The translations under genes were made by a program, and so were the position numbers. Shown in pieces: positions 8,356 through 36,000 of a stretch of 64,000 nt of DNA. The notes beneath the pieces were generated by a model that ran no database searches, was not told the DNA's origin, and saw only the letters and a program-made list of their open reading frames with translations. Source of the DNA: Agromyces protaetiae (GTDB lineage: Bacteria; Actinomycetota; Actinomycetes; Actinomycetales; Microbacteriaceae). The DNA lies in contig NZ_CP035491.1 of NCBI RefSeq assembly GCF_004135405.1, positions 2,914,001-2,978,000 of the forward strand, read 5' to 3'. The number at the start of each line of letters is the position of its first letter. Position 1 is the first letter of the stretch.

Positions 8356-8876
8356 GCGGGGTGTCGAACGGAGCGGCAGACCACGCGCGCGAACTCGGCG
8401 ACCGGCTCAAGTCGGCGTTCCGGATGCATCCCGCCGGCGTCGCCCTCATCACCGCCGCCGCGGCGACGGGCCCCGTCGGTCTGACGGCCTCGAGCGTGTC
8501 ATCCGTCGCCGCCGAACCCGCCGCGCTCTCGTTCTCGGTGACGCGCGCGACCGGCACCGCGGGCGCCCTGCTCGCCGCGCCCTCGTTCGCCGTGCACTTC
8601 CTCGGCGAGCAGCACGCCGACCTCGCGCGCGTGTTCGCCCACTCGGGGGCGCCGCGGTTCACGCCCGAACAGGGCTTCGTCCGGCTGCCGACGGGCGAGC
8701 CGTTCCTGCCCGACTCCCCGGCGGTTCTGCGGGCGCGGGCCTTGCACCTGATTCCCGTCGGATCGTCGACGCTCGTCGTCGCCGAAGTGCTCGACGTGCA
8801 TCTCGGCGACGAGGCGCCGCCGCTCCTGTACCGCGACCGCAAGTTCCTCCGACTCGACCCTGAAACGGAGCTCTGA
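8352..8876 (+). CDS. Flavin reductase-like domain protein
   Basis: This 174-residue protein resembles the flavin reductase/flavin mononucleotide-binding split-barrel family. It has [14 protein letters not shown], then [23 protein letters not shown] (described as residues 40-62) and [19 protein letters not shown]. Such proteins reduce free FMN or FAD with NAD(P)H. The ATG at 8352 overlaps the ferredoxin stop, so both are one SoxR-controlled unit. Pairing with a ferredoxin suggests a shared electron-transfer role. Confidence 0.82.
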
Positions 8877-8922
8877 GCCCGGTCCTCGTGCGCTGGCGCG
8901 CCGCTTGCCCCCGCACCGCACG

Positions 8923-8940
8923 GCTCTCCATGATGAGAGC
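8923..8940. promoter_or_regulatory. Short inverted repeat ahead of the first DUF308-lipase gene
   Basis: GCTCTC-CATGAT-GAGAGC has perfect 6-base arms and lies 20 bases upstream of the start at 8961. It could be an operator for the neighbouring LuxR protein or a leader hairpin. The evidence is weak. Confidence 0.3.
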
Positions 8941-8960
8941 ACGACGACGGAGAGGCTCGC

Positions 8961-10837
8961 ATGGCCGACGCAGGCGACACCGGAAGAAGCTCCGCCCACC
9001 TGACCGCCTGGTTCGGTCGACTGCCGCGCTGGGTGCGCGGGCTCGGCGGACTGGCCGCCGTCGGTCTCGGCGCAGTGCTCATCGTGCGGCCGACGACCTC
9101 GCTCGGTGTGCTCGCGCTCCTCATCGGTGCGGGCCTCATCCTTTCGGGCATCCTGGAGCTCGTCACGCGGCCCGACCGAGGCGCCGACGACGCCGAGCCT
9201 CCCCGATTCGCGGCGGCGCTCTCCCTCAAGGCGATCCTGTGGATCGCGGCCGGACTCCTCGTCCTCTTCCTCCCCGGCCTCACGGTACGCCTGCTCGCCC
9301 TCATCGTCGGCGTCGCGCTCATCGTCAACGGCGTGCTGTCGATCCTCACGGGGTTTCGGAAGCGGCGCACGCTCGACGCCCGCATCGCCGACATCGCGTT
9401 CGGGCTCGCGGGGTCGTGTTCGGCGTGCTCGCGCTCGCGTGGCCCGACATCACCCTGCTCGTGGTCGCGGTCGTGTTCGGCGCGCGGCTCATCATGGTCG
9501 GACTCGTCGCGGTGTGGCAGGCGGTGCGCGGGCGGCGCGACCGCGAGCGGGCCGGCGAGGATTCGGCGAGCGCGGGCGCAGAGGGCGAGGCTACCGCGGG
9601 AGCGCCGGATGCCTCGCCGCGCCCCCTGCGCCGATGGACGCGCACGATCGCGGCCGTCGCCGCTCTTCTGTTGGCGGGCGGCGCCGCCGCGCTGAGCGCG
9701 AGCCTGCAGAGCGGCTCCCCCGTCGTCGACGACTTCTACGCCGCCCCTCGCACGGTCCCGGGCGAGCCCGGAAGGCTCATCCGCTCCGAGGCGTTCACGA
9801 GAGACATCCCGAGCAATGCCCGCGCTTGGCGCATCCTCTACACGACGACGAGCGGCGACGGCTCGGCTGCCGTCGCGAGCGGGCTCGTCGTCGTGCCGCG
9901 CGACGGCGACGGGCCCTGGCCCGTCGTCGACTGGACCCACGGCACGACGGGCTTCGCCGAGAACTGCGCGCCCTCGCTCGCCGAGCACCCGTTCGAGTCG
10001 GGCGCGTTCTTCCTCGTCGACCAGGTCGTCGACCACGGCTGGGCGCTCGTCGCGACCGACTACATCGGCCTCGGCACGAAGGGTCCGCACCCGTACCTCA
10101 TCGGACCCGACACGGGCCACGCGGCACTCGACGCCGCGCGCGCCGCGCGCGAACTCGACGGGGCGGACCTCGGCGACCAGAACATCGTGTGGGGACACTC
10201 GCAAGGCGGTGCGGGCGCGCTCTGGACGGGCGCACTCGCCGACGTCTACGCCCCCGACCTCGACATCGAGGGCGTCGCGTCGCTCGCGCCCGCGAGCAAC
10301 CTGCCGGGCCTCGTCGGCAACCTCGACGAGATCCCCGGCGGGAGCGTGTTCGCGTCGTACGTCGCCGCGTCGTACACCGCGATCTACCCCGACGTGACGA
10401 TGCGCGAATACATCCGCCCGGGCGCCGTCGTGACCGTGCGCGAGATGGCGAAACGCTGCCTCGCCGAGCCCGGCGTCTTCGTGTCGGTGCTGAACGCGCT
10501 CGCGCTCTCGAGCGACCCCGTGATCTTCTCGAAAGACCCCACGACCGGCCCCCTCGGTGTCCGACTCGAAGAGAACACCCCGCCGCCGACGATCTCGGCG
10601 CCCCTCCTCCTCGGGCAGGGCGCCGCCGATCCTCTTGTGGTCCCAGCAGCACAGGACGCGTACGTCGAAGAGCTGTGCACCGCCGGCCAGCAGGTCGACT
10701 ACCGGCTGTACGCCGGGCGCGACCATGTCGGGCTCGTCGAACCCGACTCGCCGCTCGTGCCCGACCTCTTCGAGTGGACCGAGGCGCGACTCGCGGGTGA
10801 TCCGGTCGAGCCGGGGTGTACTCGCGTCGAACGCTGA
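8961..10837 (+). pseudogene. DUF308 (HdeD-like) membrane domain fused to secretory lipase, frameshifted
   Basis: The first frame (8961 to about 9410) gives an HdeD-like run of membrane segments. The sequence then continues in another frame from about 9413 to 10837 as FGVLALAWPDITLL and a secretory-lipase domain with WGHSQGGAGALW (nucleophile Ser). Adding one G to the four-G run at 9410-9413 joins the two parts. The product then aligns throughout with the intact paralogue at 13569-15407, which makes a one-base deletion the simplest explanation. The repaired protein would be about 625 residues: six short membrane helices, one more helix, then an external lipase/esterase. The start at 8961 follows ggagagg. 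It may be a sequencing error rather than a true pseudogene. Confidence 0.8.
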
Positions 10838-10843
10838 ACGGCG

Positions 10844-13411
10844 TCATCCGGGCCTCGTGAGGTCGAGGCCCCCGAGCGACGCGGGCGCGAGCAGCCGCAA
10901 CTCGCGCGCTCGCGCGACCGCCGCCCGCCGGCCGTCGACGCCGAGTTTGCGGTAGATCGACCGCGCGTGGGTCTTCACGGTGTTCACAGAGACGAAGAGC
11001 GCCGCCGCGATCTCCTCGTGCGACATGTTCGACGGGAGATAGCCGAGCACCTGGCGCTCACGCGGTGTCAGTGGTTCGGGGGCCGCGGCGCCCGCAAGAC
11101 CCGACGTCGGCGCCATGAGCTCCAGCGCCTCGGCGACGAAGGCCGCATGCGAAGTCCCGTGCGCGAGGTGCGCCGCGAGGAGCGTCGCGAGGAGCGGCCC
11201 GTGCGAGACGAGCGGGCGAAGGAACCGGGCAGGCTCCCCGAGATCGAGCGCCGCTTCGAGCCGTGCATGCGCCTCGGCGGTGCGACCGGCCGCGCGCAAT
11301 GCGAGGGCGTGGACGAGATCGATGTCCATCGCGACCGACGGGAACACGGTCGTCTGAGTCTCCCGCGCCGCGGCGACGGCCGCGAGCGCGGCCCGAGCAT
11401 CGCCGCGATCCAGATAGAGGCGGGCGATGACCGACCACATCAGGGGACCCCGTGCTGCATCCTTCACGAGCGCGTCGGCTTCGTCCGTCCGTCCGGACGC
11501 GACGAGCAGGCGGAGCTTCCAGGCGTCCAGCGTGTCGACGACGACGGGATCGGCCGGCCACGACCGAAGCCCCGCTTCCGCGCGACGGATCTCGTCGAGC
11601 GCATCCGCGACCCGGCCCTCCGAGACCAGGAGCACGAGGCGCGGCAGCGCGATCGCCGCACGCTCGGGTCGGTCGCGGGGGCGACGTGTCGCCGCCTCAG
11701 CGACGTCGACGAGCGCGGCCGCGTCATCGAACCGGCACTGCAACGTCGCGATGAGCGCCCCCATCACGGCGGCGGCACCGACCGCAGACGACCGCATCCA
11801 ACCGTGGCGATCCGCCGCCCGGAGCGTCTGCTCGACACGATGGAGCGAGCCGGGGATGTCTCCGCACTTCGCTTCGGCCTCGGCGAGGAATCCCGTCGCG
11901 ATGAACCGGAGCCACGTCGACCCGGCGTCGTCGGCGAGGGCGAGCGCCTCGCGCAGATGGGCACGCGCCTCGAACACATCGCCGGTCCACGACTCGGTCG
12001 TGCCGACGAACGACAACAGCAGGCTTCTGAGCTGGAGCGTCGCAGCCGCCCCGGCCGTTCCCGTGTGAAGAAGTCGGTCCGCCGCCTCGCGAGTGCCCTC
12101 GGCATCGCCCGCGGCGCGAGCCGCGAGCACGTCGAGCAACAGCCGAGCGGGCGAGTCCGCCGCGACGGACGACCTCATCGCCGCGTGCACCTCGCGCAGG
12201 CGCTCGGCCGACCGATGATCGGGTTCGAGCTGGAGGCTCAGCGCTGCGAGGGCGATGCCGAGATCGAGGTCACGGCTCGAGTCGACGGGGATCGACGAGA
12301 GCAGGGGCTTCAATCCGTCGAGTTCGCCGGCCTGGATGAGATCCGGCCAGAGTGCCGCTGCGAGCTCCGCCGCGTACTCGAGCCGATTGCCCGCGAGCGC
12401 ATGCTCGATCGCGCTCCGGCCGTCGCCGCGGTCCGCGTACCAGCGGGCGGCCTTCCCGTGCACGTGCGCGAACCCGTCGGGGTCGACGAGCGCGAACCGC
12501 GACCGGAGGTAAGAGCGGAACAGGGTCCCGTAGCGGAAGGTCGACGGGTCTCCGTCGACTGGCTCGAGGAAGAGTCCGGCCCGCGACAGCTCGCCCAGCC
12601 GCCGACCGGCATCACGCGAGCCGGTGAGCGCTTCGGCGAGCGGCACGTCGAACTCGTCGACGACGGATGTCCCGAACAGGAACCGCCGATCGTCGTCGGA
12701 TCGAGGCTCGAGGAACTCGACCGCGAAGTATTCGCGAAGGCGTGGGTCATCCGCAGCCGACTCATCGACCGGCGCGTCTGCGCGGCCGCCCGCGCTCGTC
12801 GCCTCGCGGGCGCGGAGTCCAGCGTGGACGATACCGGCCATCCAGCCTCCGGTTCGCGCGTGGAGCCGATCGGCCGCGTGCCGATCGGCGACGACGCCCA
12901 GTCGCGCGAGGATCTCCAGGGTCTCCCGCGCCGTGCAGGCGAGGTCGCTCGACCCGATGACGGCCACGTTTCCACCGAGCCTCGAGCGGTGCGAGCGCAG
13001 CGTCGGCGTCGGACGTGCGATGAGGATGACGCTCACGCCTTCGGGGATCGCTGCGAGGAGATCATCGACCGATCCGGGCCCAGGCGCGGTGAACGGTTCC
13101 CCGTGCTCCTCGTCGAAGACGAGCACGGGCGGCGGACCGGAGACGGCCTGCCCGATGGCCAGCTCACGCACTCGTTCGGCCACCGGACGCGCGTCGCCGC
13201 CCGTGATCCAGATCACCCGTCGATCCGTCCTCGCCGCCCAGTCCGAGACCGCCACGGTCTTCCCCGACCCCGCCTCGGCGACGACGAGCGTCAGCGGGTG
13301 CGACGCGCCCGCGTCGAGGAGTCCGTCGATCCGGCCGCGGGCCACGAGATGCGCAGGCCGAAGCGGCAGCCGGTCACCGGACCGCTCGGAGAACGTCGAA
13401 CGGGGAAGCAT
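10844..13411 (-). CDS. MalT-like LuxR-family transcriptional regulator
   Basis: This 855-residue protein has an N-terminal NTPase with Walker A (VVAEAGSGKTVAVSDW), a long helical TPR-like middle and a C-terminal LuxR domain (TPRERQVLGYLPSNMSHEEI, then VNTVKTHARSIYRKLGV). This is the MalT/LAL design, in which ligand and ATP binding permit DNA binding. I chose the ATG at 13411, preceded by gaggaagga. The open frame runs further to 14275, but that part is antisense to the next lipase gene. The gene lies between the two DUF308-lipase genes and is divergent from the second, so it probably controls them. Confidence 0.87.
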   Translation of the reverse strand: MLPRSTFSERSGDRLPLRPAHLVARGRIDGLLDAGASHPLTLVVAEAGSGKTVAVSDWAARTDRRVIWITGGDARPVAERVRELAIGQAVSGPPPVLVFDEEHGEPFTAPGPGSVDDLLAAIPEGVSVILIARPTPTLRSHRSRLGGNVAVIGSSDLACTARETLEILARLGVVADRHAADRLHARTGGWMAGIVHAGLRAREATSAGGRADAPVDESAADDPRLREYFAVEFLEPRSDDDRRFLFGTSVVDEFDVPLAEALTGSRDAGRRLGELSRAGLFLEPVDGDPSTFRYGTLFRSYLRSRFALVDPDGFAHVHGKAARWYADRGDGRSAIEHALAGNRLEYAAELAAALWPDLIQAGELDGLKPLLSSIPVDSSRDLDLGIALAALSLQLEPDHRSAERLREVHAAMRSSVAADSPARLLLDVLAARAAGDAEGTREAADRLLHTGTAGAAATLQLRSLLLSFVGTTESWTGDVFEARAHLREALALADDAGSTWLRFIATGFLAEAEAKCGDIPGSLHRVEQTLRAADRHGWMRSSAVGAAAVMGALIATLQCRFDDAAALVDVAEAATRRPRDRPERAAIALPRLVLLVSEGRVADALDEIRRAEAGLRSWPADPVVVDTLDAWKLRLLVASGRTDEADALVKDAARGPLMWSVIARLYLDRGDARAALAAVAAARETQTTVFPSVAMDIDLVHALALRAAGRTAEAHARLEAALDLGEPARFLRPLVSHGPLLATLLAAHLAHGTSHAAFVAEALELMAPTSGLAGAAAPEPLTPRERQVLGYLPSNMSHEEIAAALFVSVNTVKTHARSIYRKLGVDGRRAAVARARELRLLAPASLGGLDLTRPG

Positions 13412-23784: not shown

Positions 23785-26061
23785 TCAGACCGGATGCGCG
23801 ACGACGAGTTCGCCGTCGACGGTCACGGTCCGGTCGTGCACCACGAGTTCGAGCGGCGCACCGTCCCGCAGTGCGAGCAGAACCCGGTCGGTCTCCACGC
23901 GGACTTCGAGCACGCGGCCGCGGTAGCCGACGGTGAACGAGAACGCCGACCAGCCTGCGGGCAGGAACGGGCGGAACGACAGGCCGGCGTCGGTCGCGCG
24001 CATGCCCGCGAACCCCTGCACGATCGCGAGCCACGCGCCGCTCATCGAGGTGATGTGCAGGCCGTCCTCGGTGTCGTTGTTGTAGTTGTCGAGGTCGAGG
24101 CGGGCGGTGCGCCGGTAGAGCTCGATGGCCTTCTCGCGTTCGCCGATCGCGGCGGCGACGACGGCGTGGATGGAGGCCGACAAGGATGACTCGTGCACGG
24201 TCATCGGCTCGTAGAACTCGAAGTTCCGCCGCAGCTCGTCGACGGTGAAGTCGGATTCGAACAGGTACATGCCCTGGAGCACGTCGGCCTGTTTGATGAA
24301 GCATGATCGCAGGATGCGGTCCCATGACCAGTGCTGGTTGAGCGGGCGCTGGTCGGCGGGGATCGTGTCGACGGGGCGGAGGTCCTTGTCGAGGAAGGTG
24401 TCATGCTGCACGTTGACGCCGAGGGCGTCGTCGTGCGGCAGGTACATGCCGCCTGAGATCGCCCGCCACGCGTCCCGTTCGGGCGCCTCGACTCCGACCG
24501 CGACGAGTCGCTCTCGGGGAAGCGCCTCGAGCACGTCGGCGGTGTACCGCAGCACCCAGGCGGCGAGGGAGTTCGTGTACCAGTTGTTGTTGACGTTGTT
24601 CTCGTACTCGTTCGGGCCCGTCACGCCGTGGATCATGTACGTCTGCGCACGCTTCGAATAGTGGACGCGGTCGGCCCAGAACCGGGAGATCTCGACGAGC
24701 ACCTCGATGCCCGGGCCCTCGAGATACGACCGGTCGCCCGTGTACCGCGTGTACTCGGCGATCGCGTGGGCGATCGCACCGTTTCGGTGGATCTCCTCGA
24801 AGGTGATCTCCCACTCGTTGTGGCATTCGATGCCGTTGAACGTCACCATCGGGTAGAGCGCGCCGGCGAGGCCCTGCTGCCTGGCGTTGTGCTGCGCCTG
24901 CGGCAGTTGCGCGTGGCGGTACGCGAGGAGCGCGCGCGTGACGTCGGGCGAGGCGACCGACAGGTAGAGGGGCACGAGGTAGGCCTCGGTGTCCCAGTAC
25001 GTGGCGCCGCCGTACTTCTCGCCGGTGAAGCCCTTCGGGCCGATGTTGAGCCGGTCGTCTTCGCCGTAGTAGGTCGAGAACAGCTGGAAGAGGTTGAACT
25101 GGATGCCTTGCTGCGCTTCGTCGTCGCCCTCGATGACCACTTGCGATCGGGCCCAGCGCTCCTCCCAGAGAGCGGTGTGGGCTGCGAGCTGCTCGTCGAA
25201 CGTCGTCCCTGCGGCCGCTTCGAGGAGCCGAGAGACCGTGTCGACATGCGCCGCCTCTTCGACGTCGCGCGTCGTGACGACGGCGGTCGTCTTCAGGATC
25301 TCGGATGTCTCGCCCGCGGCGAGTTCGCCCGAGAACACGAGACCCGCCTGCAGCGGAGCATCGACGACTCCGGACGGGTCGAGCCCCGTGACATCCGCTC
25401 GCATGCCCGCCGTCACCGTGAACTGCGGCGTGCCGAACGGATTGGGGATCGTGCGGAGCGACAGGTGCGGCACCGGCGCCGGGCCGCGGGCGACCTCGCT
25501 CCAGAACTGCTCGCCGTAGTTCGCGTCGAGGTTGTGGACGTCGCCGTCAAGGCGCGGCGTCGCGCGCACGCGCACCGAGCCCTCGAGCGCGCGTATGCGA
25601 AGGCGTTGGAGGCACAGTTCGGGGGTGGCGATCGAGAGGAACCGTTCGAACTCGAAGCGGACCTTCGCCGTGCCGGTGATGTAGGTGAACGACCGGGTGA
25701 GCAGTCCGTTCCGCAGGTCGAGTCGGAGCGCGAAGTCTTCGTGCCGCCCGGTGAAGAGGTCCACCGGTTCGCCGTCGAGCTCGAGGTCGATCGCGATGAG
25801 GTTCGTCGCGTTGATGACCTTGCCGAAGTACTCGGGGTAGCCGTTCTTCCACCACCCGACGCGGGTCTTGTCGGGGAACCAGACGCCCGCGATGTACGTG
25901 CCGCGATGGCTGTCGCCCGAGTAGCCCTCCTCGAAGTTGCCGCGCATGCCCATGTGGGCGTTGCCGGCCGAGGTCATCGACTCGATCAGGCGCATGCGGC
26001 CGTCGTCGAGCCGTGTCGTGCTGATCGCGTACGGTTCGACGTCGAACACCCGCTCGCTCAT
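23785..26061 (-). CDS. GH65 family phosphorylase, most like maltose phosphorylase
   Basis: This 758-residue protein has an N-terminal beta-sandwich and a helical barrel typical of GH65. [17 protein letters not shown] (about residues 345-361) is the maltose-phosphorylase form of this motif. TGPNEYENN places the expected catalytic acid Glu at 485. [12 protein letters not shown] lies in the phosphate-binding region. It would split a glucosyl disaccharide with phosphate to give beta-glucose-1-phosphate and glucose. I chose the ATG at 26061, preceded by gaggagg. No beta-phosphoglucomutase adjoins it, unlike many such loci. Kojibiose or trehalose specificity is possible. Confidence 0.83.
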
Positions 26062-26173
26062 GCAATGCCTCCTCGTCGGAACCCGCATCCGAGTCCGACG
26101 GTATCGCGCGCACGCGTCGGCAGGCTAGGGCCGCTCGGGCCGGGCTCGCGAGGCTCGATCTCGACGCCCGCGC

Positions 26174-26272: not shown

Positions 26273-27253
26273 ATGGCTTCAGCGGTCGCGTTCTGGGTCG
26301 ACGAGCCGGGCGTGGGGGTGCTCCGGACGGAGCCGCTTCGCTCGCCGGGCCCGGGCGATGTGCTGATCCGCACGGCCTGCACGGGGATCAGCCGAGGCAC
26401 CGAGACCTCGGTCTTCCTCGGCCGGGTGCCGCCGAGCGAGCACGAGCGGATGCGTGCGCCCTTTCAGGAGGGCGACTTCCCGGGCCCGGTCAAGTACGGC
26501 TACCTGAATGTCGGCGTCGTCGAACACGGGCCCGCACCGCTCATCGGACGCACGGTCTTCAGCCTCTTCCCCCACCAATCGGCGTTCGTGGCCCCGGCGG
26601 ACGCCGTCGTGCCCGTCCCGGATGAGGTGCCGACGCGCCGAGCGGTCCTCGCCGGCGCGGTCGAGACCGCCGTGAACGTGCTGTGGGACGCCGCCCCGGT
26701 CGTCGGCGACCGGGTGACCGTCGTCGGAGCGGGCATGATCGGGTGCTGCGTCGCACGGCTGGCCCGCGGCATCCCCGGCGTCGAAGTCGTGCTCGTCGAC
26801 ATCGACGCATCGCGTGCTGAGACGGCCGAGCTCCTCGGGGTGGGGTTCGCAGCCCCCGACGCCGCTCCCCGCGATCAGGACCTCGTCGTGAACACGAGCG
26901 GGTCGGCGGCCGGACTGCAGCTCGCCCTCGAGTCGGTCGTGACCGACGGGGAGGTCATCGAGGCGAGTTGGTACGGCGACCGGCCCGTCACCCTCGACCT
27001 CGGAGGCGACTTCCACTCGCGCCGCCTCACCATCAGGTCGAGCCAGGTCGGTGCGGTCGCGCGTCGGCGCCGGGAGCATCGCACGACGCGGGACCGCCTC
27101 GCCCTCGCCCTCGGACTCCTCCACGACGACGCGTTCGACGCCGTGCTGACGGGGAGCTCGTCCTGGCGGGACCTCCCCGCCGTGATGGCGGGCATCGCCT
27201 CCGGCTCGGGGAGCGATCTGTGCCGCACGATCGATTGGACGGATGCCCCGTGA
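26273..27253 (+). CDS. Zinc-binding-type dehydrogenase, BchC-like MDR protein
   Basis: This 326-residue MDR-superfamily protein has the BchC-type opening ([20 protein letters not shown]). The nucleotide-binding motif is [16 protein letters not shown]. The usual catalytic zinc Cys/His pattern is not visible, as in other BchC-like proteins. The exact reaction is unknown. The ATG at 26273 has a perfect AAGGAGGG ribosome site. It leads a five-gene operon in which every junction is a four-base GTGA or ATGA overlap. Confidence 0.82.
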
Positions 27254-27651
27254 GCTTCACCCTGACCGTCCGAGACCACATCATGGTCGCCCACAGCCTC
27301 ACGGGCGAGGCCTTCGGCCCGGCACAGCGCCTGCACGGCGCGACGTTCGTCGTCGACGCAGCGTTCCGCGCACGGGAGCTCGACGCGGACGGCGTCGTGG
27401 TCGACATCGGCGACGCGGCCGCCGCGCTCCGCGAGATCACGGGGTCGCTCACCTACCGGAACCTCGACGACGAGCCCGCGCTCGCGGGCGTGAACACGAC
27501 GACCGAGGCGCTCTGCCGTTTCATCGCCGACCGCCTCGCGGAGCGGATCGCCGACGGCCGCCTCGGCTCCGGCGACGGCCGGCTCTCGTCGATCGAGGTC
27601 ACCCTGCACGAGTCCCACGTCGCGTGGGCGAGCTACGAGCGGGATGTGTGA
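27250..27651 (+). CDS. 6-pyruvoyl-tetrahydropterin synthase/QueD family protein, degenerate active site
   Basis: This 133-residue protein matches the PTPS/QueD fold: [20 protein letters not shown] near the start and TLHES near the end. By alignment to QueD, zinc ligands His15 and His29 remain. The third (the second His of HGH) is Ala31, the nucleophilic Cys is Ala25, and the Asp-His pair of the LDHHYLN region reads LTYRNLD. It therefore probably does not perform the classical reaction. The GTG at 27250 overlaps the previous stop. Its neighbours (a RibD-type reductase, glycosyltransferase and methyltransferase) suggest a pterin-like product. Confidence 0.78.
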
Positions 27652-28778
27652 GGCGAATGGATGCCCCCGTGCTCCACTTCCTCGTTCCCGACGGCTTCGA
27701 CGAACCCGCCCGCGCGAGCGGGGGCAACGTGTACGACCGCAGGGTCGCCGCGGCGCTCCAGGCGGCCGGATTCGACGTGCGCCTCGCGCCCCTCGACGTC
27801 GGGGCTCGCGATCGGCTCGATCGCGCACTCGTCGCCGTGCCCGACGACGGGCTCGTCCTCGTCGACGGACTCGTCGCGGTCGCAGCATCCGAGGTCCTCT
27901 CGGCGCACGCGTCGCGCCTGCGCGTCGTGGTGCTCGCCCACATGGTCGCGAGCGCGCTCGCGGAGTCATCGGATGCCTCGGCGACCGCCGGAGACGAACG
28001 CACCGCGCTGTCGGCCGCCCGGCGCATCATCGCGACGAGCGACTGGACGCGCTCGGAGCTCGCGGCGCGCGGGCTCGCGGAGTTCGATCGCATCGCGGTC
28101 GCGCGACCCGGGGTCGACGTCTCGGCGGCGCGGATCGCCCGCATCCGGGCCGCGCCGGTCCGGCCGGAGCCCGCGCGCGATCAGCGGCGAGCGGCCCGGT
28201 TCCTCTGCGTCGGCGCCCTCGCCCGCCACAAGGGACAGGATGTCCTCGTCGAAGCGCTCGCGGGTCTCACCGACGTGCCCCCGTGGACCTGCTCGATCGT
28301 CGGATCCCACACGGCGGACCCGTCGTTCGCGGGCCGGATCGTCTCCGACATCTCGGCCGCCGGACTCGAGGGCGTGACCCTGGCGGGCGTGCTCACGGGC
28401 TCACGGCTCGACGATGCGTTCGGCAGCGCCGACCTCGTCATCGCGCCCTCGCGCGCGGAGAGCTACGGCATGGTCGTCGCCGACGCCCTCGCGAGAGGGA
28501 TCCCGGTGGTGACGACACGCGTCGGCGGGATTCCCGAGGCCGTCGCGGGGCACACGTCCGCGGTGCTCGTCGCGCCCGACGATCCCACGGCGCTCCGCGC
28601 CGTGCTGAAACGATGGCTCGCGGATGTCCCGTGGCGCGACCGGCTCACGGCCGCCGCCCTGCGCTCGCCCACCCCGGCACGATACTGGTCCGAGACCACG
28701 CGGGTCGTCGCCGGAGTCCTCACGAGCGTGCGAGCGGAGTCCGGCATCGGCGCCGCCGAGGTGCGGAGCACCGGGTGA
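27648..28778 (+). CDS. GT4-family glycosyltransferase
   Basis: This 376-residue GT-B glycosyltransferase has an N-terminal Rossmann domain with the acceptor-side GGNVYD loop. The donor domain has [20 protein letters not shown] and [20 protein letters not shown]. The family EX7E motif appears as E-x7-D. It would transfer a sugar from an NDP-sugar to an unknown acceptor. I chose the GTG at 27648 (GTGA overlap). An ATG at 27657 is the alternative and removes three residues. Confidence 0.87.
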
Positions 28779-29590
28779 GTGGGGTCATCGACGTCGATGC
28801 AGACTGGCTCGCGTTGCGCGAAGCCGAAGACGCCCGCGCGCGCTCGCGCGAACTCGCCCTCGCCGCCGCCTCCGCGCTCGCACCCGGTCAGGTCGTCGTC
28901 CACGACCTCGGAAGCGGAACCGGCTCGATGCTGCGATGGCTCGGGCCGCTCCTGCCCGGCCCGCAGGTCTGGGTGCTGCACGACTGGAACGCGGCGCTCC
29001 TCGATCGCGCGCTCATCGGCGATCCCGCTCGCGACCGCGACGGTCGACCGATCTCGGTGCAGATCCGCACCCGCGAACTCGCGCGGCTCCGCCGCGCCGA
29101 CCTCGACGGGGCCGACCTCGTCACGGCGTCGGCACTCCTCGACGTCCTCACCGCCGAAGAGATCGGCGCCGTCGTCGAGGCGTGCACCGCGGCCGGATGT
29201 CCCGTCCTGATCAGCCTGAGCGTGACGGGCGACGTCGAGCTCGATCCCGTCGAGCCCCTCGACGACGAACTCCGGGCCGCCTTCAACGCGCACCAGCAAC
29301 GGTTGGTCGGCGGACGGCGGCTCGTCGGCCCGTCCGGCGCGGCGCTCGCCGAAGGACTGTTCCGCGAGGCCGGCTGGAGCGTCGCGCGCGCGACATCCCT
29401 CTGGCGGCTCGGTCGGCGCGAGCCGGGCCTCCTCGGTCGGTGGCTCGACGGATGGCTCGACGCCGCCCTCGAACAGCGCGCCGACCTTCGCCGCGACGGC
29501 GTCCGCTACCGTGCCCTGCGCGAGGCGCAGTTGCGGCGCGGAGCGCTCTCCGCCACCGTCTCCCACGCGGATCTCCTGGCGTCGCCATGA
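28775..29590 (+). CDS. Class I SAM-dependent methyltransferase
   Basis: This 271-residue protein has the SAM-binding motif VVVHDLGSGTGSMLRWLGPL (about residues 40-59) and a second acidic strand (WVLHDWNAALLDRAL). A helical C-terminus rich in Arg follows. The GTG at 28775 overlaps the glycosyltransferase stop by four bases. The substrate is probably the same intermediate made by the operon's PTPS-like and glycosyltransferase proteins. Confidence 0.82.
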   Translation: MSGVIDVDADWLALREAEDARARSRELALAAASALAPGQVVVHDLGSGTGSMLRWLGPLLPGPQVWVLHDWNAALLDRALIGDPARDRDGRPISVQIRTRELARLRRADLDGADLVTASALLDVLTAEEIGAVVEACTAAGCPVLISLSVTGDVELDPVEPLDDELRAAFNAHQQRLVGGRRLVGPSGAALAEGLFREAGWSVARATSLWRLGRREPGLLGRWLDGWLDAALEQRADLRRDGVRYRALREAQLRRGALSATVSHADLLASP

Positions 29591-30276
29591 CCGAGGCGCC
29601 GTACGTGACCCTCAGCGTCGCGATGTCGATCGACGGACACCTCGACACCGTGCCGCCGCCGCGGCTCATCCTCTCGAACGCCGCCGACTTCGATCGCGTC
29701 GACGAGGTCCGCTCGCAGAGCGACGCCATCCTGGTCGGCGCCCGCACCGTTCGCGCCGACAACCCGCGGCTGCTCGTACGGAGCGAGGAGCGCCGTCGCC
29801 GCCGCGAGACCGAGGGGCTGCCGTCATCCCCGTGGAAGGTCACCGTCACGGCCTCGGGCGACCTCGACCCGCGCGCGGAGTTCTTCTCCGCGGGTCACGG
29901 GGAGAAGCTCGTGTACTGCCCGGAATCGGCCGGCCGAGACATCCGGAACCGCCTCGGCGAGCGCGCGACCGTCGTCGAGCTCGGCGAATCGGTCACGATG
30001 GCGGACCTCGTCGACGATCTGGGCGACCGGGGCGCACGGACCCTCCTCGTCGAGGGCGGCGGAACCGTGATCACGCAGTTCTTGACCGGCGATCTCGTCG
30101 ACGAACTGCAGTTGGCGATCGCCCCGTTCTTCGTCGGCGACGGGCGCGCTCCACGTCTCGTCGGCGACGGGCGATTCCCCTGGACGCCCGACCGCCGAGC
30201 ACGGCTCATCGAGACTCGGCAGGTCGGCGACATCGCCGTGCTCAGATACTCCCTCTCCGAACGCTCGCCCGACTGA
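29587..30276 (+). CDS. RibD C-terminal / dihydrofolate-reductase-family protein
   Basis: This 229-residue protein fits the RibD reductase fold: YVTLSVAMSIDGHLDT at the start, SDAILVGARTVRADNPRLLV, and LLVEGGGTVITQFL near the end. Such enzymes reduce pyrimidine or pterin-like ring intermediates with NADPH. No RibD deaminase domain is present. The ATG at 29587 overlaps the methyltransferase stop. It is the last gene of the coupled five-gene operon. Confidence 0.87.
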   Translation: MTEAPYVTLSVAMSIDGHLDTVPPPRLILSNAADFDRVDEVRSQSDAILVGARTVRADNPRLLVRSEERRRRRETEGLPSSPWKVTVTASGDLDPRAEFFSAGHGEKLVYCPESAGRDIRNRLGERATVVELGESVTMADLVDDLGDRGARTLLVEGGGTVITQFLTGDLVDELQLAIAPFFVGDGRAPRLVGDGRFPWTPDRRARLIETRQVGDIAVLRYSLSERSPD

Positions 30277-30395: not shown

Positions 30396-31505
30396 ATGCC
30401 GCATGACATCTCGGCAGCCGTGCTGCCCGACTACGACCGGCCCTTCGAGGTCCGAACGGTCCAACTCGACGATCCGCGCCCGAACGAAGTCCTCGTGAAG
30501 CTCGTCGCCACGGGAGTGTGCGGCACCGACCTCGGCGTTCAAGCGGGCCACACGCCGTTCCCGCTGCCGGGCGTGCTCGGGCACGAGGGCGCCGGAGTCG
30601 TCGAGGCGGTGGGCGCCGGCGTCTCCACGGTGAAGCCGGGCGACAAGGTGCTCCTCTCGTTCACGAGCTGCGGAGTCTGCCGCAACTGCAAGCTGGGGCA
30701 TCCGGCCTTCTGCCAGTACTTCCTGACCTTGAACCTGATCGGCGGGCGCCGCGCCGACGGCAGCTACACGCTCCACGAAGGCGGGGAGCCCGTGAACGGC
30801 CACTTCTTCGGTCAATCGTCGTTCGCCACGCACGCGCTCGCCGACGAGCGCGGCGTGACGAGAGTGTCGGACGACGCCGACCTCGCTGCGCTCGCACCCC
30901 TCGGATGCGGCATCCAGACCGGCGCCGGCACCGTGCTGAACATCCTCAAGCCCGCACCCGGAACCACGATCGCGGTCTTCGGCGCGGGAGCGGTCGGTCT
31001 CGCCGCCGTCATGGCGGCGCGACTCACCAGCGTGGAACGGATCGTCGTCGTGGACATCGTCCAGTCGCGCCTGGATCTCGCCGCGACGCTTGGTGCGACG
31101 CATCCGATCAACTCGCGCGACCTCGACCTCACCCAGGTGCTGCTCGATCTGACCGACGGTTGGGGGATCGACTACGCCGTCGACGCCACGGGAAACGTTC
31201 CCGTGATCCACAGTGCGATCCTGGCGCTCGCCCCGCTGGGCGAGCTCGCCCTCGTCGGCGCCCCGCCCGTCGGCCACACCGTCGACCTCGACGTCAACTT
31301 CATGTTGAGCGGACGACGCGTCATCGGTGTGACCGAGGGCGACTCCACGCCGCAACTGCTGATCCCTGCCCTCATCGAACTGATCGCGCAGGGGCGGTTC
31401 CCGCTCGACAAGCTCATCACGCCGTTCGACTTCTCGAACATCAACGACGCGATGAGCGCCCTGAAAGACGGCTCGGCCTTGAAACCTGTGCTCCATTTCG
31501 CCTGA
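30396..31505 (+). CDS. Zinc-dependent NAD(P) alcohol dehydrogenase
   Basis: This 369-residue class-III-type MDR enzyme has both zinc sites. The catalytic site has TGVCGTD and LGHEGAG. The structural site has four Cys in SCGVCRNCKLGHPAFC. The Rossmann motif is IAVFGAGAVGLAAVMAARL. It resembles aryl/benzyl-alcohol dehydrogenases. It begins 119 bases after the RibD-type gene with its own AGAGGAAG ribosome site, so it may be a separate unit or the last gene of that operon. It converges with the sulfatase gene. Confidence 0.88.
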   Translation: MPHDISAAVLPDYDRPFEVRTVQLDDPRPNEVLVKLVATGVCGTDLGVQAGHTPFPLPGVLGHEGAGVVEAVGAGVSTVKPGDKVLLSFTSCGVCRNCKLGHPAFCQYFLTLNLIGGRRADGSYTLHEGGEPVNGHFFGQSSFATHALADERGVTRVSDDADLAALAPLGCGIQTGAGTVLNILKPAPGTTIAVFGAGAVGLAAVMAARLTSVERIVVVDIVQSRLDLAATLGATHPINSRDLDLTQVLLDLTDGWGIDYAVDATGNVPVIHSAILALAPLGELALVGAPPVGHTVDLDVNFMLSGRRVIGVTEGDSTPQLLIPALIELIAQGRFPLDKLITPFDFSNINDAMSALKDGSALKPVLHFA

Positions 31506-31535: not shown

Positions 31536-33188
31536 TCATCCCCGGCTGAACGCGTCGACGAATCGATCGCGGAATGCGCTCATCGGCCAGACGGGCGCGT
31601 CCGGCCCGGGGAGCACGCCGTCCTCCCACTCCCACTCGTCGATCGCGTCCGAGACCGCCGGGTCTTTGGAGATGATGCTGATCGGAACATCGTGGCCGGG
31701 ATCCCGGCCGGTCACGATCGTCGCGGGCTGGTGGTCGCCGAGCACCACGAGCACGAGGTCGGGATCGTCCGATTCGTGCAGGAACGAGAGCATCGCGGCG
31801 AGCGCATACCGAATCGACCGGGCGTACGCCTCTCGCACCCGGCCGGGTTCCTTCCAGACCTCCGCGGCCGACTCCCCTCGCGCGGCCTGCGACCCGAACA
31901 CGGAGCCGTCGCCGATCTCCGGCCAGGGAACCAGCTCGGGCAACGGCGCCCATGGCGTGTGCGAGGAGAGCAGGTCGACCTCGGCCATGACCGGCCGATC
32001 GTCGGCGGCGAGCACCTCGTCGGCGAGGTGCTTCCAGGTGTACTGGTCCGGAACCAGCGCGTATCCGAACGACGGACCGCGGTAGCCGACGTCGCTCGCG
32101 TCGATCAAGGTGTCGAAGTGATAGAACGACGTGCCGAACGACCACGGCTCGGTGCCGGCGGGCGAGAGGCTGACCGTGTGCCATCCGGCTCTCCCGAAGA
32201 TCTCGCTGAGCGTGAGTCGATCGCTCCGGATCACTTTGCTGTAGACCGGCTGCCGATCGACCCAGAGACCGGTCATGAGCGTCGAGTGCGCAAGCCAACT
32301 GAGGCCGCCGAAGGTGGGCGACGTGAGGAAGGCGCTCCTCGAGACGTACCCGTCGGCCTCGAGTTGCGCGTTGCCCTCTCGCAGAGTGCGTCGGATGTCG
32401 GCTGAGAAATCCGTCCCCTGCACGGCGACTCTGCCGTAGCTCTCGACGAATGCGAAGACGACGTCCTTGCCCTCGAGCCCGGTGAGCAAGCGGGAGCCCG
32501 GCGTCGCTCGAAAGCGATCCGCCGCGATCTGCCTCGGCAGGGCCGCGACCGCCGTGAGCCCCGCTGCCGAGTGCGAGGCCGACGTGCTGATCGCGTGCAC
32601 GGCGGCGGCCGCCGCGATCGGTCGCCCCGGCACGAGGTGCGCGCCCGTCGCCGCCCCGACGATCCACACCGCGGCGACCGCCGCGATCGCGCACGTGCCG
32701 CGACCGCGGTCGTGACGCATTGCGGTGTCGACGCGAAGCACCGCCCACGCGAGCGCGACGATCGACAAGGCGGTGGCGATCGCGATGAGCACCACGAGGG
32801 TGATCGCGGGCCCCGCGCCGATCGCTCCCGTGACGACCCCGAACGCGTCGCCCAATTGCTGCCAATCGAGCGGATCGAACGGGATGTCGAGCACCTCCCG
32901 GTAGCCGGCGTCGATGGCCCCGAGCACGATCGCGAAGACGACGACCACGCCGAAGCAGGCGGCGAGGACGAGTCGCACCGGGCGCCAGGGAACCATGAAG
33001 AGCACGAAGAGCACGAGGATCGACTCGGCGGGAACCCCGAGGATCGCGAGCGGGAAGCCGTCTGCGAGCGCCGCAGGCGCCCGCGGCGCCAGCGGGAGGA
33101 GGACGAGCACGACGATCGCGACGGCCAGCGAGAATCGGCGGAGCGGCGATCCCGACGGTCTGTCCGCGCCGACGGGCGCATCGGTCAC
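31536..33188 (-). CDS. Membrane-anchored sulfatase/phosphoglycerol-transferase-like protein
   Basis: This 550-residue protein has four or five N-terminal membrane segments (residues about 20-210) and an external alkaline-phosphatase-superfamily domain. Metal-site pieces are VVFAFVESYGRVAV, SPTFGGLSWLAHSTLMTG (nucleophile region) and VVLGDHQP. LtaS-like and sulfatase enzymes of this shape act on envelope lipids or polymers. I chose the GTG at 33188, overlapping the upstream stop by four bases. The longer open frame to 34196 is antisense or shadow sequence. It ends a four-gene minus-strand operon. Confidence 0.82.
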   Translation of the reverse strand: MTDAPVGADRPSGSPLRRFSLAVAIVVLVLLPLAPRAPAALADGFPLAILGVPAESILVLFVLFMVPWRPVRLVLAACFGVVVVFAIVLGAIDAGYREVLDIPFDPLDWQQLGDAFGVVTGAIGAGPAITLVVLIAIATALSIVALAWAVLRVDTAMRHDRGRGTCAIAAVAAVWIVGAATGAHLVPGRPIAAAAAVHAISTSASHSAAGLTAVAALPRQIAADRFRATPGSRLLTGLEGKDVVFAFVESYGRVAVQGTDFSADIRRTLREGNAQLEADGYVSRSAFLTSPTFGGLSWLAHSTLMTGLWVDRQPVYSKVIRSDRLTLSEIFGRAGWHTVSLSPAGTEPWSFGTSFYHFDTLIDASDVGYRGPSFGYALVPDQYTWKHLADEVLAADDRPVMAEVDLLSSHTPWAPLPELVPWPEIGDGSVFGSQAARGESAAEVWKEPGRVREAYARSIRYALAAMLSFLHESDDPDLVLVVLGDHQPATIVTGRDPGHDVPISIISKDPAVSDAIDEWEWEDGVLPGPDAPVWPMSAFRDRFVDAFSRG

Positions 33189-33910
33189 GATGCACGCACC
33201 TCTGCTTCGGCGGATCGAGCGCGTCCTCGCGTCGCGAGCCAGACGACATCGCGACCGAAGGACTCGACGAGCAGGACGAGTGCGACGGCGACCGCGGCGT
33301 ACGAGAACTCGGGGAACAGACCGGTCGCGGCGAAGGCGAGGACGATCCCCTGCACCGCGGCCACGACCTTGCGCCAATACCGGTACGGGAGCGGCCCGCG
33401 CAGCCGGGGAAGCATCCATCCCGCCACGACGAAGGCGTACCGCATCAGGCCGATCGCGAGCACCCACGGGCCGAGGGACCGCGCCACGTAGACGCTCAGC
33501 ACGAGCAGCAGGAACGCGTCGACCTCCCAGTCGAACCGGGCGCCGAGCGCGGTCGCGCTGCCGGTCCGCCGCGCGACCCATCCGTCCACGGCGTCGAGTG
33601 CGAGCGCCGGCACGGTCAGGCCGATGAGGAGCGGCACCGGGATCGGTGCGACGAACGAGGCTGCGACGAGACCCGTGATGACGCCGACGAGCGCCGACCG
33701 GATCGCCGTCACGAGATTCGCCCATCCGAGACGCGAGGCGCCCCGACGTCGCAGCGCGATCCCCAGCAACGCGGTGCTCGACGCGAGGTACCCGATCGCG
33801 ACAGCGAGCCCGATCGCCGGCATCGCATCGACCGCCCAGAGGGTCGCGGCGCCGACCGCGCCGAGCACCGCCACGCCGATCGGAACGAGCTGCACCTCGC
33901 CGAGTGCCAT
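33185..33910 (-). CDS. CDP-alcohol phosphatidyltransferase family protein
   Basis: This 241-residue protein has about six membrane segments and the full family motif D-x2-DG-x2-AR-x8-G-x3-D-x3-D (DAVDGWVARRTGSATALGAR, then F-D-WEV-D). Such enzymes join a CDP-lipid and an alcohol. The ATG at 33910 overlaps the methyltransferase stop (TGATG), and its own stop overlaps the next start (GTGA). With the sulfatase-like partner it probably makes or modifies an unusual phospholipid headgroup. Confidence 0.88.
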   Translation of the reverse strand: MALGEVQLVPIGVAVLGAVGAATLWAVDAMPAIGLAVAIGYLASSTALLGIALRRRGASRLGWANLVTAIRSALVGVITGLVAASFVAPIPVPLLIGLTVPALALDAVDGWVARRTGSATALGARFDWEVDAFLLLVLSVYVARSLGPWVLAIGLMRYAFVVAGWMLPRLRGPLPYRYWRKVVAAVQGIVLAFAATGLFPEFSYAAVAVALVLLVESFGRDVVWLATRGRARSAEAEVRAS

Positions 33911-34620
33911 CACGTGCCTTCGACGACGACGCGCCGATCCCGGGTACCGGTTCCGCGGCCGGATCCGGCCGCGAGGAAGGCGCTCCCGAAACACAGCTCC
34001 ACCCAGGAGGGATCGACCAGCCGCTCCTCGATCGCCCCGCGAATCGCGTCCCAGGGGCGGCGCTCGATCCACTCGTCGAGCGAGGCCGAACGGCGCACCG
34101 CTGCGATTCCGAGCCGGGACAGCCAGGCGGGCGTCGCGCCGGGGATCTTGAGGTCCAGCACGACCCACCGACCGCCGCCGGAAAGCGCGGCGGCACCGTT
34201 GGCGATGACCGTTCCGCACTCTGCCACCTGCGTCAGCGCGTACGTGGACAGAACAGCGTCGACCTTGTCGGGAAAGGCGAACTCCGCCGCATCCGCCTGC
34301 ACGAGGGTGACGTTGCTCCACCCGTTCGCGTCGGCCCGATCGCTTGCACGCGCGAGCATCGCGTCGGTGAGATCGACGCCGACGAGCCGGCCGCTGGGAC
34401 CGATCGCCTCCTCGATGAGGGCGAAGTTCAGACCCGTTCCGCACGCGACATCGACCACGGTGTCGCCCGCTCGGAGGCCGAGCGCCTGCACCGCGCGTGC
34501 ACGCTGCGACCGCTGCGGGTAGCCGGGCGCCGGGTAGAGCCGGGACACGAGGTCGTATCGCTTGGCCTTCTTGCGGTACACCTCGATGAGGTGCGCTCGC
34601 GTGCGGTCGGCCTCGCTCAC
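33910..34620 (-). CDS. UbiE-like SAM-dependent methyltransferase
   Basis: This 236-residue protein opens with VYRKKAKRYDLVSRLYPAPG, typical of UbiE/COQ5-like enzymes. Its SAM motif is VVDVACGTGLNFALIEEAIG, followed by GRLVGVDLTDAML. The GTG at 34620 overlaps the SRPBCC gene's stop. The substrate may be a quinone-like or lipid compound, but the neighbours favour an envelope lipid. Confidence 0.85.
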   Translation of the reverse strand: MSEADRTRAHLIEVYRKKAKRYDLVSRLYPAPGYPQRSQRARAVQALGLRAGDTVVDVACGTGLNFALIEEAIGPSGRLVGVDLTDAMLARASDRADANGWSNVTLVQADAAEFAFPDKVDAVLSTYALTQVAECGTVIANGAAALSGGGRWVVLDLKIPGATPAWLSRLGIAAVRRSASLDEWIERRPWDAIRGAIEERLVDPSWVELCFGSAFLAAGSGRGTGTRDRRVVVEGT

Positions 34621-35084
34621 GGCGATCCCGCTCCCGCTCGAAGGTCGGATTCGACGGCGGCTTTGATGCCCGCCATCTCGATGTCGCTCACGCGCTGGAT
34701 TCGGTCGTGGAGGGCGCGTCCCGGGATGGCGCGCATGAGCTTCGCGGGGTCGACTTCGACCCACATCATCGCGTCGGTCCGGCGGTCGCCTGCCGGCGCG
34801 AACTCCATGCCCCAGCGGGCCACGGACGTTCCCATCGTTCCGGCGAACCCCATCGAGCGCGGGGCATCGACCTCCGTGATCTGTTCGCGCCGGCGGTGAT
34901 TCCAGCCGAAGTCCCTCGCCCGCTGCTCGACCCATGCGCCGGGCTCGAACCGTTCACCGTCGCGAACGCGGCACTCGATCACGGTCGGCGCCCACTCGGG
35001 CCACCGCCGGACGTCGGCCAGGTATCCCCATACGTCCTCGATGCCCCCGTCGACCGTGATGCGGCTCTCGGTTCTGATGGTCAT
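34617..35084 (-). CDS. SRPBCC family (polyketide cyclase/START-like) protein
   Basis: This 155-residue protein has the START-like fold signature SRITVDGGIEDVWGYLADVR, followed by WPEWAP. The family binds hydrophobic ligands. I chose the ATG at 35084 (MTIRTES), which has ggagg 11 bases upstream. An ATG at 35102 would add six residues but lacks a ribosome site. It is the first gene of the minus-strand operon. Confidence 0.8.
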   Translation of the reverse strand: MTIRTESRITVDGGIEDVWGYLADVRRWPEWAPTVIECRVRDGERFEPGAWVEQRARDFGWNHRRREQITEVDAPRSMGFAGTMGTSVARWGMEFAPAGDRRTDAMMWVEVDPAKLMRAIPGRALHDRIQRVSDIEMAGIKAAVESDLRAGAGSP

Positions 35085-35208
35085 GGGTTCCACCGCCTCC
35101 ATGCGTCGCGCCTGCGGCCCCCACCGCTCCGCGACACGCCATGCACAATACTGTTGTCATGCCACTGCCGCGAGGGGGTGCAGCGATCGGATCGCTCGGA
35201 GGACCGTG

Positions 35209-36000
35209 GTGACCCGGCGCGCCGACGTCGACGCGGCGCTGCACGACGCTCGAGTGGCCGCGCATCTCCCCGCCCGCTTCGTCGGTCAGGAGAGCTTCAT
35301 GACGGCCGAGGGGATCCTGGCCCTCGCGCGCAGCGCCGGCGTGGGCGCCGACACGCGCGTGCTGGACGTCTGCTGCGGCACCGGCGGTGCCGGGCGCCAC
35401 CTCGTGCGCACGCTCGGCTGCTCTTACCACGGTGTCGACGCAGATGCCGAGGCCGTCGCCTCGGCCCGGCACCACGCCGTCGGCTTGTCGAGCACCTATG
35501 CAGTGCACACGGTGCCGCCGCTGCCCGTCGGCGAAGCCGACGTCGACGTCGTGCTCCTGCTGGAGACCGTCCTGGCGTTCCCCGACAAGCATGCGCTCGC
35601 ATCGGCAGTCGCGGTCGCCTTGCGACCGGGCGGTCGGTTCGCGTGCACGCTCGAAGAAGGAACGCCGTTGACGCCCGTCGAGCGCGAGGCGATGCCCGCC
35701 GCCGATACCGTCTGGCCCGTGCCCTTGGCCGAGTTCGTGTCGACGTTGGCAGACGTCGGACTCGCAACCGTCTCGGTTCAGGATGACACCGCGTCGCATC
35801 TGCGCGTCGCGACCGCTCTGCTCACGCAGTTCACAGCCGCTCGCGACCGCATTGAGGCGGCGCTCGGCGCGACGTTCACCGATGACCTGCTCGCGTCCCA
35901 CCGACTGTGGCGGGACTGGATGGCGTCGGGTCGCATTCGCAAGTTCGCGCTGGTCTCGGAGCGTGAGCCGATCGACGGAGTCCTCGAGGTCGCGGACTGA
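35209..36000 (+). CDS. SAM-dependent methyltransferase
   Basis: This 263-residue protein has the SAM motif TRVLDVCCGTGGAGRHLVRT and the motif-III area ALRPGGRFACTLEEG. I chose the second of two adjacent GTG codons (35209), which sits 6 bases after GGAGG. The GTG at 35206 is equally in frame. It is divergent from the SRPBCC operon and is the last core-like gene before the accessory island. Confidence 0.82.
   Translation: MTRRADVDAALHDARVAAHLPARFVGQESFMTAEGILALARSAGVGADTRVLDVCCGTGGAGRHLVRTLGCSYHGVDADAEAVASARHHAVGLSSTYAVHTVPPLPVGEADVDVVLLLETVLAFPDKHALASAVAVALRPGGRFACTLEEGTPLTPVEREAMPAADTVWPVPLAEFVSTLADVGLATVSVQDDTASHLRVATALLTQFTAARDRIEAALGATFTDDLLASHRLWRDWMASGRIRKFALVSEREPIDGVLEVAD

Follow-up and report, generated by a model that had tools for sequence, protein, structure and literature searches.

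A conserved actinobacterial locus that may turn a GTP-derived diaminopyrimidine into a glycosylated pterin-like molecule

Introduction

Loss of a single Tyr is reported to stop GTP cyclohydrolase II (GCH II) at a formylated intermediate, FAPy. In Streptomyces coelicolor, SCO6655 is reportedly a GCH II of this kind (Met-type, Tyr to Met), which makes FAPy and stops there, and the PTPS homologue SCO6650 is said to be inactive as a PTPS. In this study, we analyzed a 64,000-nucleotide stretch of DNA from Agromyces protaetiae (contig NZ_CP035491.1, positions 2,914,001 to 2,978,000; hereafter the window, in whose coordinates the genes below are placed), which carries a five-gene operon encoding a protein that, judged by its sequence, is orthologous to SCO6650.

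A creatininase-family protein of S. meliloti, BrbF, deformylates this same formylated intermediate; the paper describing it leaves the bacterial maker of FAPy to be found and the reactions of more distant homologues open (PMC9478397). We propose, with a probability of roughly 55%, that the operon belongs to a conserved actinobacterial locus turning a GTP-derived diaminopyrimidine into a glycosylated pterin-like molecule, which is probably handled at the membrane. The locus itself is a real, conserved and uncharacterised biosynthetic locus. No description of its gene set was found in the open-licence literature and, as far as that literature shows, the pathway and product are undescribed; some members have reportedly been studied in S. 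coelicolor, one structure has been solved, and the creatininase link may already be in print.

Results

The five-gene operon and its conservation

Five open reading frames (ORFs) on one strand tile positions 26273-30276, and the ORF calls were confirmed in the window sequence:

26273..27253, + strand: zinc-independent MDR-family dehydrogenase, remotely BchC-like (NCBIfam profile, zinc-ligand alignment)
27250..27651 (GTG start), + strand: PTPS-fold protein, SCO6650 orthologue by sequence, without the PTPS catalytic residues (3d7j match, E 5.9e-52; alignment)
27648..28778 (start GTG 27648 or ATG 27657), + strand: GT4-family glycosyltransferase (Pfam Glyco_trans_1_4)
28775..29590 (GTG start), + strand: class I S-adenosylmethionine (SAM)-dependent methyltransferase-fold protein, outside Pfam and NCBIfam models (predicted structure)
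29587..30276, + strand: RibD_C-type reductase without a deaminase domain (Pfam RibD_C; NCBIfam archaeal reductase model, below cut-off)

The original prediction, made from the letters of the window, had placed five same-strand genes here, as the ORFs bear out, with a four-base overlap at every junction and a fixed stoichiometry of the products. Such an overlap is present at three of the four junctions, and the PTPS/GT4 junction depends on the choice of start codon, with a four-base overlap for GTG 27648 and a five-base gap for the in-frame ATG 27657. Among relatives, the distance from the stop codon to the next profile match at the first three junctions has medians of 11, 9 and 0 bases and upper quartiles of 98, 48 and 152 bases; tight gene spacing is thus common but not fixed. 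Because one junction is ambiguous and the spacing in relatives is variable, a fixed stoichiometry is not supported, and overlaps alone are no proof of one. The predicted gene types fared better: PTPS (rightly labelled degenerate, see below), GT4, RibD_C and the methyltransferase fold all held, the dehydrogenase being only remotely BchC-like. The five-gene core also stood. What the prediction did not include were the solved orthologue SCO6650 and two further genes described below, for a CDP-alcohol phosphotransferase and an LtaS-like protein.

Conservation was assessed in 142 loci, all selected on the PTPS-like gene: a first set of the best 80 of at least 405 relatives of this gene, from which the neighbour profiles were built, and a second set of 64 stretches, opened from genomes that were positive in the phylum and class searches given below, two of which were dropped as repeats of earlier loci. 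Representatives were scanned to name the neighbour families, and the neighbour counts are lower bounds because some stretches end at contig ends. Within these loci, GT4 (142), dehydrogenase (141), flippase-like (126), CDP-alcohol phosphotransferase (121) and methyltransferase (121) genes were the most frequent neighbours, followed by GCH II (106), RibD-type (79), creatininase-type (58) and LtaS-like (48) genes. The genes therefore stay together in other genomes, as the original prediction required, and both of the additions that it had suggested looking for in relatives, GTP cyclohydrolase and creatininase-type genes, are present. The grouping goes beyond chance: related loci throughout the phylum carry the first four gene types as a group. 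The gene order dehydrogenase, PTPS, GT4, methyltransferase, as read in the relatives, is shared with those from Streptomyces, which add a Met-type GCH II and a creatininase. Two S. coelicolor studies give hints on expression: one places SCO6655 in a list of genes that anticorrelate with predicted flux (PMC2853524), and in the other SCO6652, which by gene order would be the methyltransferase, has log2 ratios of 4.3 (48 h) and 4.1 (72 h) in the second mycelium (PMC3610822).

Searches for the PTPS-like gene were positive in 10 of 296 genomes at the level of the phylum, in 62 of 393 within the class and in 41 of 101 within a genus taken to be Streptomyces, and found it in none of the five other sampled genomes of the window's own genus. 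Its distribution is patchy, with a copy 78% identical to that of the window in an Agromyces sp. as against none in those five.

Loss of the GCH II tyrosine is paired with a creatininase-type gene in relatives

For the GCH II/CREATININASE pairing, the residue aligned to E. coli Tyr105, whose numbering and role we take as given, was read in each cluster GCH II. In the first set, all 34 loci with a Tyr-type GCH II were without a creatininase-type gene, and all 22 loci with another residue (15 Met, 6 His, 1 Gln) had one. The second set, obtained after this pattern had appeared, gave the same picture (Tyr, 14 of 14 without; non-Tyr, 35 of 36 with). Overall, a creatininase gene is missing from the locus in 48/48 Tyr cases and present in 57/58 non-Tyr cases (Met, His, Leu or Gln). 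In the exception, L134 of genome G625, the only creatininase-family match is separated from the PTPS-like gene by 13 kb and fell beyond the stretch initially taken.

The substitution is confined to the switch position among the sites checked: the three zinc Cys residues, Asp126 and Arg128 are retained in all 58 non-Tyr enzymes, and so the Tyr105 equivalent is replaced with the other checked catalytic residues kept in 58 of the 106 cluster GCH IIs. The creatininase motif residues, some of which are presumably metal ligands, are invariant in the 58 cluster proteins, and one representative scored 212.7 bits against the Pfam creatininase model, placing these proteins in the fold family with intact metal-site motifs. 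We predict that the Tyr-type enzymes make 2,5-diamino-6-ribosylamino-4(3H)-pyrimidinone 5'-phosphate (DARPP) directly, and that the non-Tyr enzymes stop at FAPy, which the linked creatininase-type hydrolase would deformylate. This predicted pairing of maker and deformylase, read from sequences of relatives, is the sharpest new point of the analysis.

Several observations weigh against our proposal, and some of them favour an alternative in which the creatininase-type hydrolase of the relatives is not a FAPy deformylase: its target would be a later amide, or FAPy by a different reaction, and the drift of the non-Tyr GCH II would have some other cause. The best NCBIfam match of the cluster creatininase is MftE, at 131.7 bits and below the cut-off of 172, and its score against the ArfB model is 37.9 bits, far from the cut-off of 180. 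On the GCH II tree, a quick one with several long branches, two changes of state are seen for the Tyr and three for the creatininase, leaving one or two independent contrasts, and the 106 loci are not 106 independent tests. Because the tree shows just one or two events, the support from the pairing is mechanistic rather than statistical, and no statistical claim is made for independent origins. Similar creatininases also occur without pathway neighbours: genome G644, with a Tyr-type cluster GCH II, has one (368 bits) in a 20-kb stretch devoid of cluster genes, genome G042 (L219) has a cluster-type creatininase alone in 12.9 kb, and locus L061 carries a creatininase with no GCH II in its stretch. 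RibD-type genes occur in just 13 of the 58 non-Tyr loci, 12 of them as weak matches. Finally, the chemistry of the window is inferred from its relatives, because its own locus has no GCH II gene, no creatininase and no flippase-like gene within the operon.

The lone creatininase gene of G644 (L220:9842-10552) lies beside a helix-turn-helix gene, and a non-Tyr GCH II was found in none of the nine Tyr-type genomes searched, G644 included. A search of the phylum with the cluster creatininase, in which few candidates per genome were scored, gave 8 positive genomes of 396, six of them known cluster genomes. In G279, from another class, a RibD-type gene, a deaminase and a creatininase stand in a row (L218:8803-10656) within 20 kb that are otherwise free of cluster genes. 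This arrangement speaks for a deformylase role, as does the loss of the switch residue alone among the catalytic sites checked, and the known bacterial deformylase BrbF itself belongs to the creatininase family (PMC9478397). We consider the alternative without a FAPy deformylase unlikely.

A RibD-type reductase without a deaminase domain, and the substrate supply of the window

The last protein of the operon matches Pfam RibD_C at 139.7 bits (cut-off 24.1), and no deaminase domain was found in it by the Pfam scan. Its best NCBIfam match is TIGR01508, the archaeal 2,5-diamino-6-ribosylaminopyrimidinone phosphate reductase, at 128.2 bits and below the cut-off of 186.45. With no deaminase domain in this protein, the 2-amino group would stay on the ring, and a pterin-like product would fit better than a flavin-like one. 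The modified, glycosylated pterin- or flavin-like product of the original prediction is plausible, and was a sound guess given that the genes are linked elsewhere and that relatives carry GCH and creatininase genes.

A side branch of riboflavin or lumazine metabolism would likewise account for the RibD-type and GCH II proteins, and a Tyr-type GCH II lies near the RibD-type genes in 4/4 Streptomyces-type loci opened outside the cluster (see below). Against such a branch stand the missing deaminase domain, the absence of lumazine and riboflavin synthase models from the recurrent neighbour families that were scanned, and the GCH II that the window genome keeps elsewhere; moreover, the PTPS fold binds pterin-like rings. 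We regard a flavin branch as very unlikely.

Within the loci, RibD-type genes are present in 47 of 48 with a Tyr-type GCH II (3 weak) and 19 of 36 without GCH II (1 weak), besides the 13 non-Tyr loci mentioned above. Of the 36 second-set genomes with a non-Tyr GCH II, 31 show a RibD-type match of at least 175 bits outside the cluster, and the remaining five (G639, G556, G500, G431 and G422) are precisely those whose cluster contains a weakly matching RibD-type gene. Twelve of these loci elsewhere were opened, one from a genome without a cluster GCH II and two from a single genome, and one gene of each kind (Streptomyces-type and other) was domain-scanned. A small deaminase-type gene was found in the stretch in 6/8 loci of the other kind. 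In L181-L184 (~8400-12000), from four genomes of the Streptomyces-type group, a second GCH II, of the Tyr type, is found close to the reductase at a site separate from the cluster. In L184 the reductase precedes a deaminase domain in one fused protein, opposite to the domain order normal for RibD. These loci outside the cluster may be riboflavin modules.

In the 101 genomes of the inferred genus Streptomyces, both the PTPS-like and the RibD-type gene were present in 32, the former only in 9, the latter only in 14 and neither in 46 (Fisher p 6e-8, a test that ignores phylogeny, on a hand count from two genome lists taken as the same genomes). Because in all four such loci opened the RibD-type gene lies near a Tyr-type GCH II of its own, and the one protein scanned is the deaminase fusion, this statistic was set aside, and it is not used as evidence that the RibD-type gene is an obligatory step everywhere.

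The window genome has a single GCH II, located elsewhere than the operon and with the Tyr present, and no match to the creatininase family. A Tyr-type GCH II was likewise found elsewhere in all 12 genomes searched (11 without GCH II at the cluster, and G625). The window operon therefore probably draws on the product of the housekeeping RibA/GCH II.

Altered PTPS-like and dehydrogenase proteins

The PTPS-like protein belongs to the T-fold family by its match to Pfam PTPS (91.4 bits, cut-off 22.4), and SCO6650 (PDB 3D7J) is its only single-sequence match in the PDB (178 bits). Its family profile also reached two canonical PTPS chains at low score. Compared with these, the catalytic Cys is replaced by Ala, the HGH zinc motif by HGA and the catalytic His by Tyr; the catalytic Cys, the Asp-His and the three zinc His residues of PTPS/QueD enzymes are thus not all in place. 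QueD membership was rejected, the protein scoring below the QueD and 6PTHBS cut-offs and having lost the catalytic residues.

The best NCBIfam match of the dehydrogenase is BchC, and membership was rejected at 52.7 bits, far under the equivalog cut-off of 291.25. The positions of its catalytic zinc ligands, Cys/His/Glu, are occupied by Ser/Tyr/Leu in 41 of 41 aligned sequences (the window and 40 sampled from 141 loci). The glycosyltransferase matches Pfam Glyco_trans_1_4 at 90.3 bits (cut-off 27). For the methyltransferase, no Pfam or NCBIfam model matched at E 0.001; its structure model (mean pLDDT 95.6) has 3mgg as the best fold match (TM 0.61-0.66), and the predicted fold can confidently be likened to that of class I SAM methyltransferases.

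A convergent operon with envelope-type genes

A second operon, at 31536-35102, is convergent with the first:

31536..33188, - strand: membrane-anchored LtaS/LtaP-like phosphotransferase-fold protein of the sulfatase superfamily (PF00884 26.4 bits, cut-off 25; profile and fold)
33185..33910, - strand: CDP-alcohol phosphotransferase, catalytic motif intact (43.4 bits, cut-off 22)
33910..34620, - strand: UbiE-like methyltransferase, accessory (related sequence in 3 of 142 loci)
34617..35102, - strand: SRPBCC/polyketide-cyclase-like protein, first gene of the operon, accessory (related sequence in fewer than 3 of 142 loci)

Its CDP-alcohol phosphotransferase and LtaS-like genes lie about 1.3-3.6 kb downstream of the first operon and are kept with the cluster in relatives. 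The former protein has both the family match and the DG-AR-G-D-D motif, the catalytic motif of this family. The best profile match of the LtaS-like protein is LtaP (E 7.9e-5), and LtaS and LtaP lead its Foldseek matches (TM 0.36-0.49 and 14-17% identity in the top four rows), among which sulfatases and phosphoethanolamine transferases also occur. Its Glu249, Asp485 and His486 are invariant and Thr292 nearly so, their equivalence to metal-site and nucleophile residues resting on a weak alignment. The assignment is a statement of predicted fold, not of substrate.

These genes bear on where the product would go. In one alternative, it is a soluble specialised metabolite (a pterin glycoside, pigment or antibiotic) that is exported, and the envelope-type genes are neighbours with a separate role. 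GT4, methyltransferase and dehydrogenase proteins suit a decorated small molecule, the envelope-type genes of the window sit in a separate convergent operon, and LtaS-like genes occur in just 48 loci. The CDP-alcohol phosphotransferase, in 121 of the 142 loci, argues for the membrane instead, and so does the flippase-like gene, which is present in 126 and in most cases follows the methyltransferase gene on its strand. We consider a soluble product rather unlikely, and the proposed pterin-like product is perhaps destined for the cell envelope.

Other genes around the operons include another SAM methyltransferase gene at 35041-36000 (+), divergent from the second operon, with a related sequence in 8 of 142 loci. 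Two neighbours were rejected as cluster members: a zinc-type ADH gene just downstream of the first operon (30396-31505), with a single 25% match in 80 loci, and a GH65-family gene divergent from it upstream (23785-26088, -), with a single 27% match in 80 loci.

Discussion

The proposed pathway would start from DARPP, made from GTP by GCH II. The RibD-type reductase would convert the ribosyl to a ribityl group with the 2-amino group retained, and the zinc-less PTPS-fold protein together with the zinc-less dehydrogenase may alter the pyrimidine or form a pterin-like ring from it. Decoration of the product would fall to the methyltransferase and GT4 proteins, and its handling at the membrane to the CDP-alcohol phosphotransferase, the LtaS-like protein and, in relatives, the flippase-like protein. 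The step order is likewise a proposal.

GTP cyclohydrolase I (GCH I) is a T-fold protein, and a bolder version of the pathway would be a GCH I-independent pterin route. GCH II, with the creatininase-type deformylase where the Tyr is lost, would yield the ribosylamino-diaminopyrimidine; the RibD-type reductase would open the sugar to ribityl and the dehydrogenase re-oxidise the side chain, two reactions that add up to the Amadori step of GCH I; and the altered PTPS would close the ring. The methylated, glycosylated pterin would then be attached through a phosphodiester bond to a lipid of the membrane or a polymer of the wall, giving a pterin-headed envelope glycolipid. We hold this full version to be distinctly unlikely.

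The relatives' loci unite a predicted bacterial FAPy maker and a predicted deformylase side by side. They would bring three orphans into one testable pathway, namely the PTPS homologue SCO6650, the GCH II SCO6655, which reportedly stops one step early, and the creatininase-family proteins. The gene set is widespread, and a sizeable part of actinobacterial metabolism, perhaps relating to the envelope, may still be uncharted.

Among known systems, BchC is the best NCBIfam match of the dehydrogenase, yet below its own cut-off. PTPS and QueD have the T-fold in common with the PTPS-like protein of the window, but this protein is without their catalytic Cys, catalytic His and third zinc His. The lipoteichoic acid synthases LtaS and LtaP supply the best profile match (LtaP) and fold matches (LtaS, LtaP) of the LtaS-like protein, which differs from them in its 14-17% identity and TM-scores of 0.36-0.49 in the top four fold matches. 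The SCO6650/SCO6655 region of S. coelicolor contains the predicted orthologue of the PTPS-like protein; compared with it, the window operon is without GCH II, creatininase and flippase-like genes and adds a RibD-type reductase. Archaeal riboflavin biosynthesis differs at its entry, with GCH III there and a non-Tyr GCH II in the relatives, and the downstream genes of the cluster are not riboflavin genes. The cluster creatininase scores far below the ArfB cut-off, and is likened to BrbF at the level of the family. The proposed logic is nevertheless like that of archaeal ArfA/ArfB/ArfC and of BrbF (PMC9478397), with a formylated intermediate, a creatininase-type deformylase and reduction before deamination.

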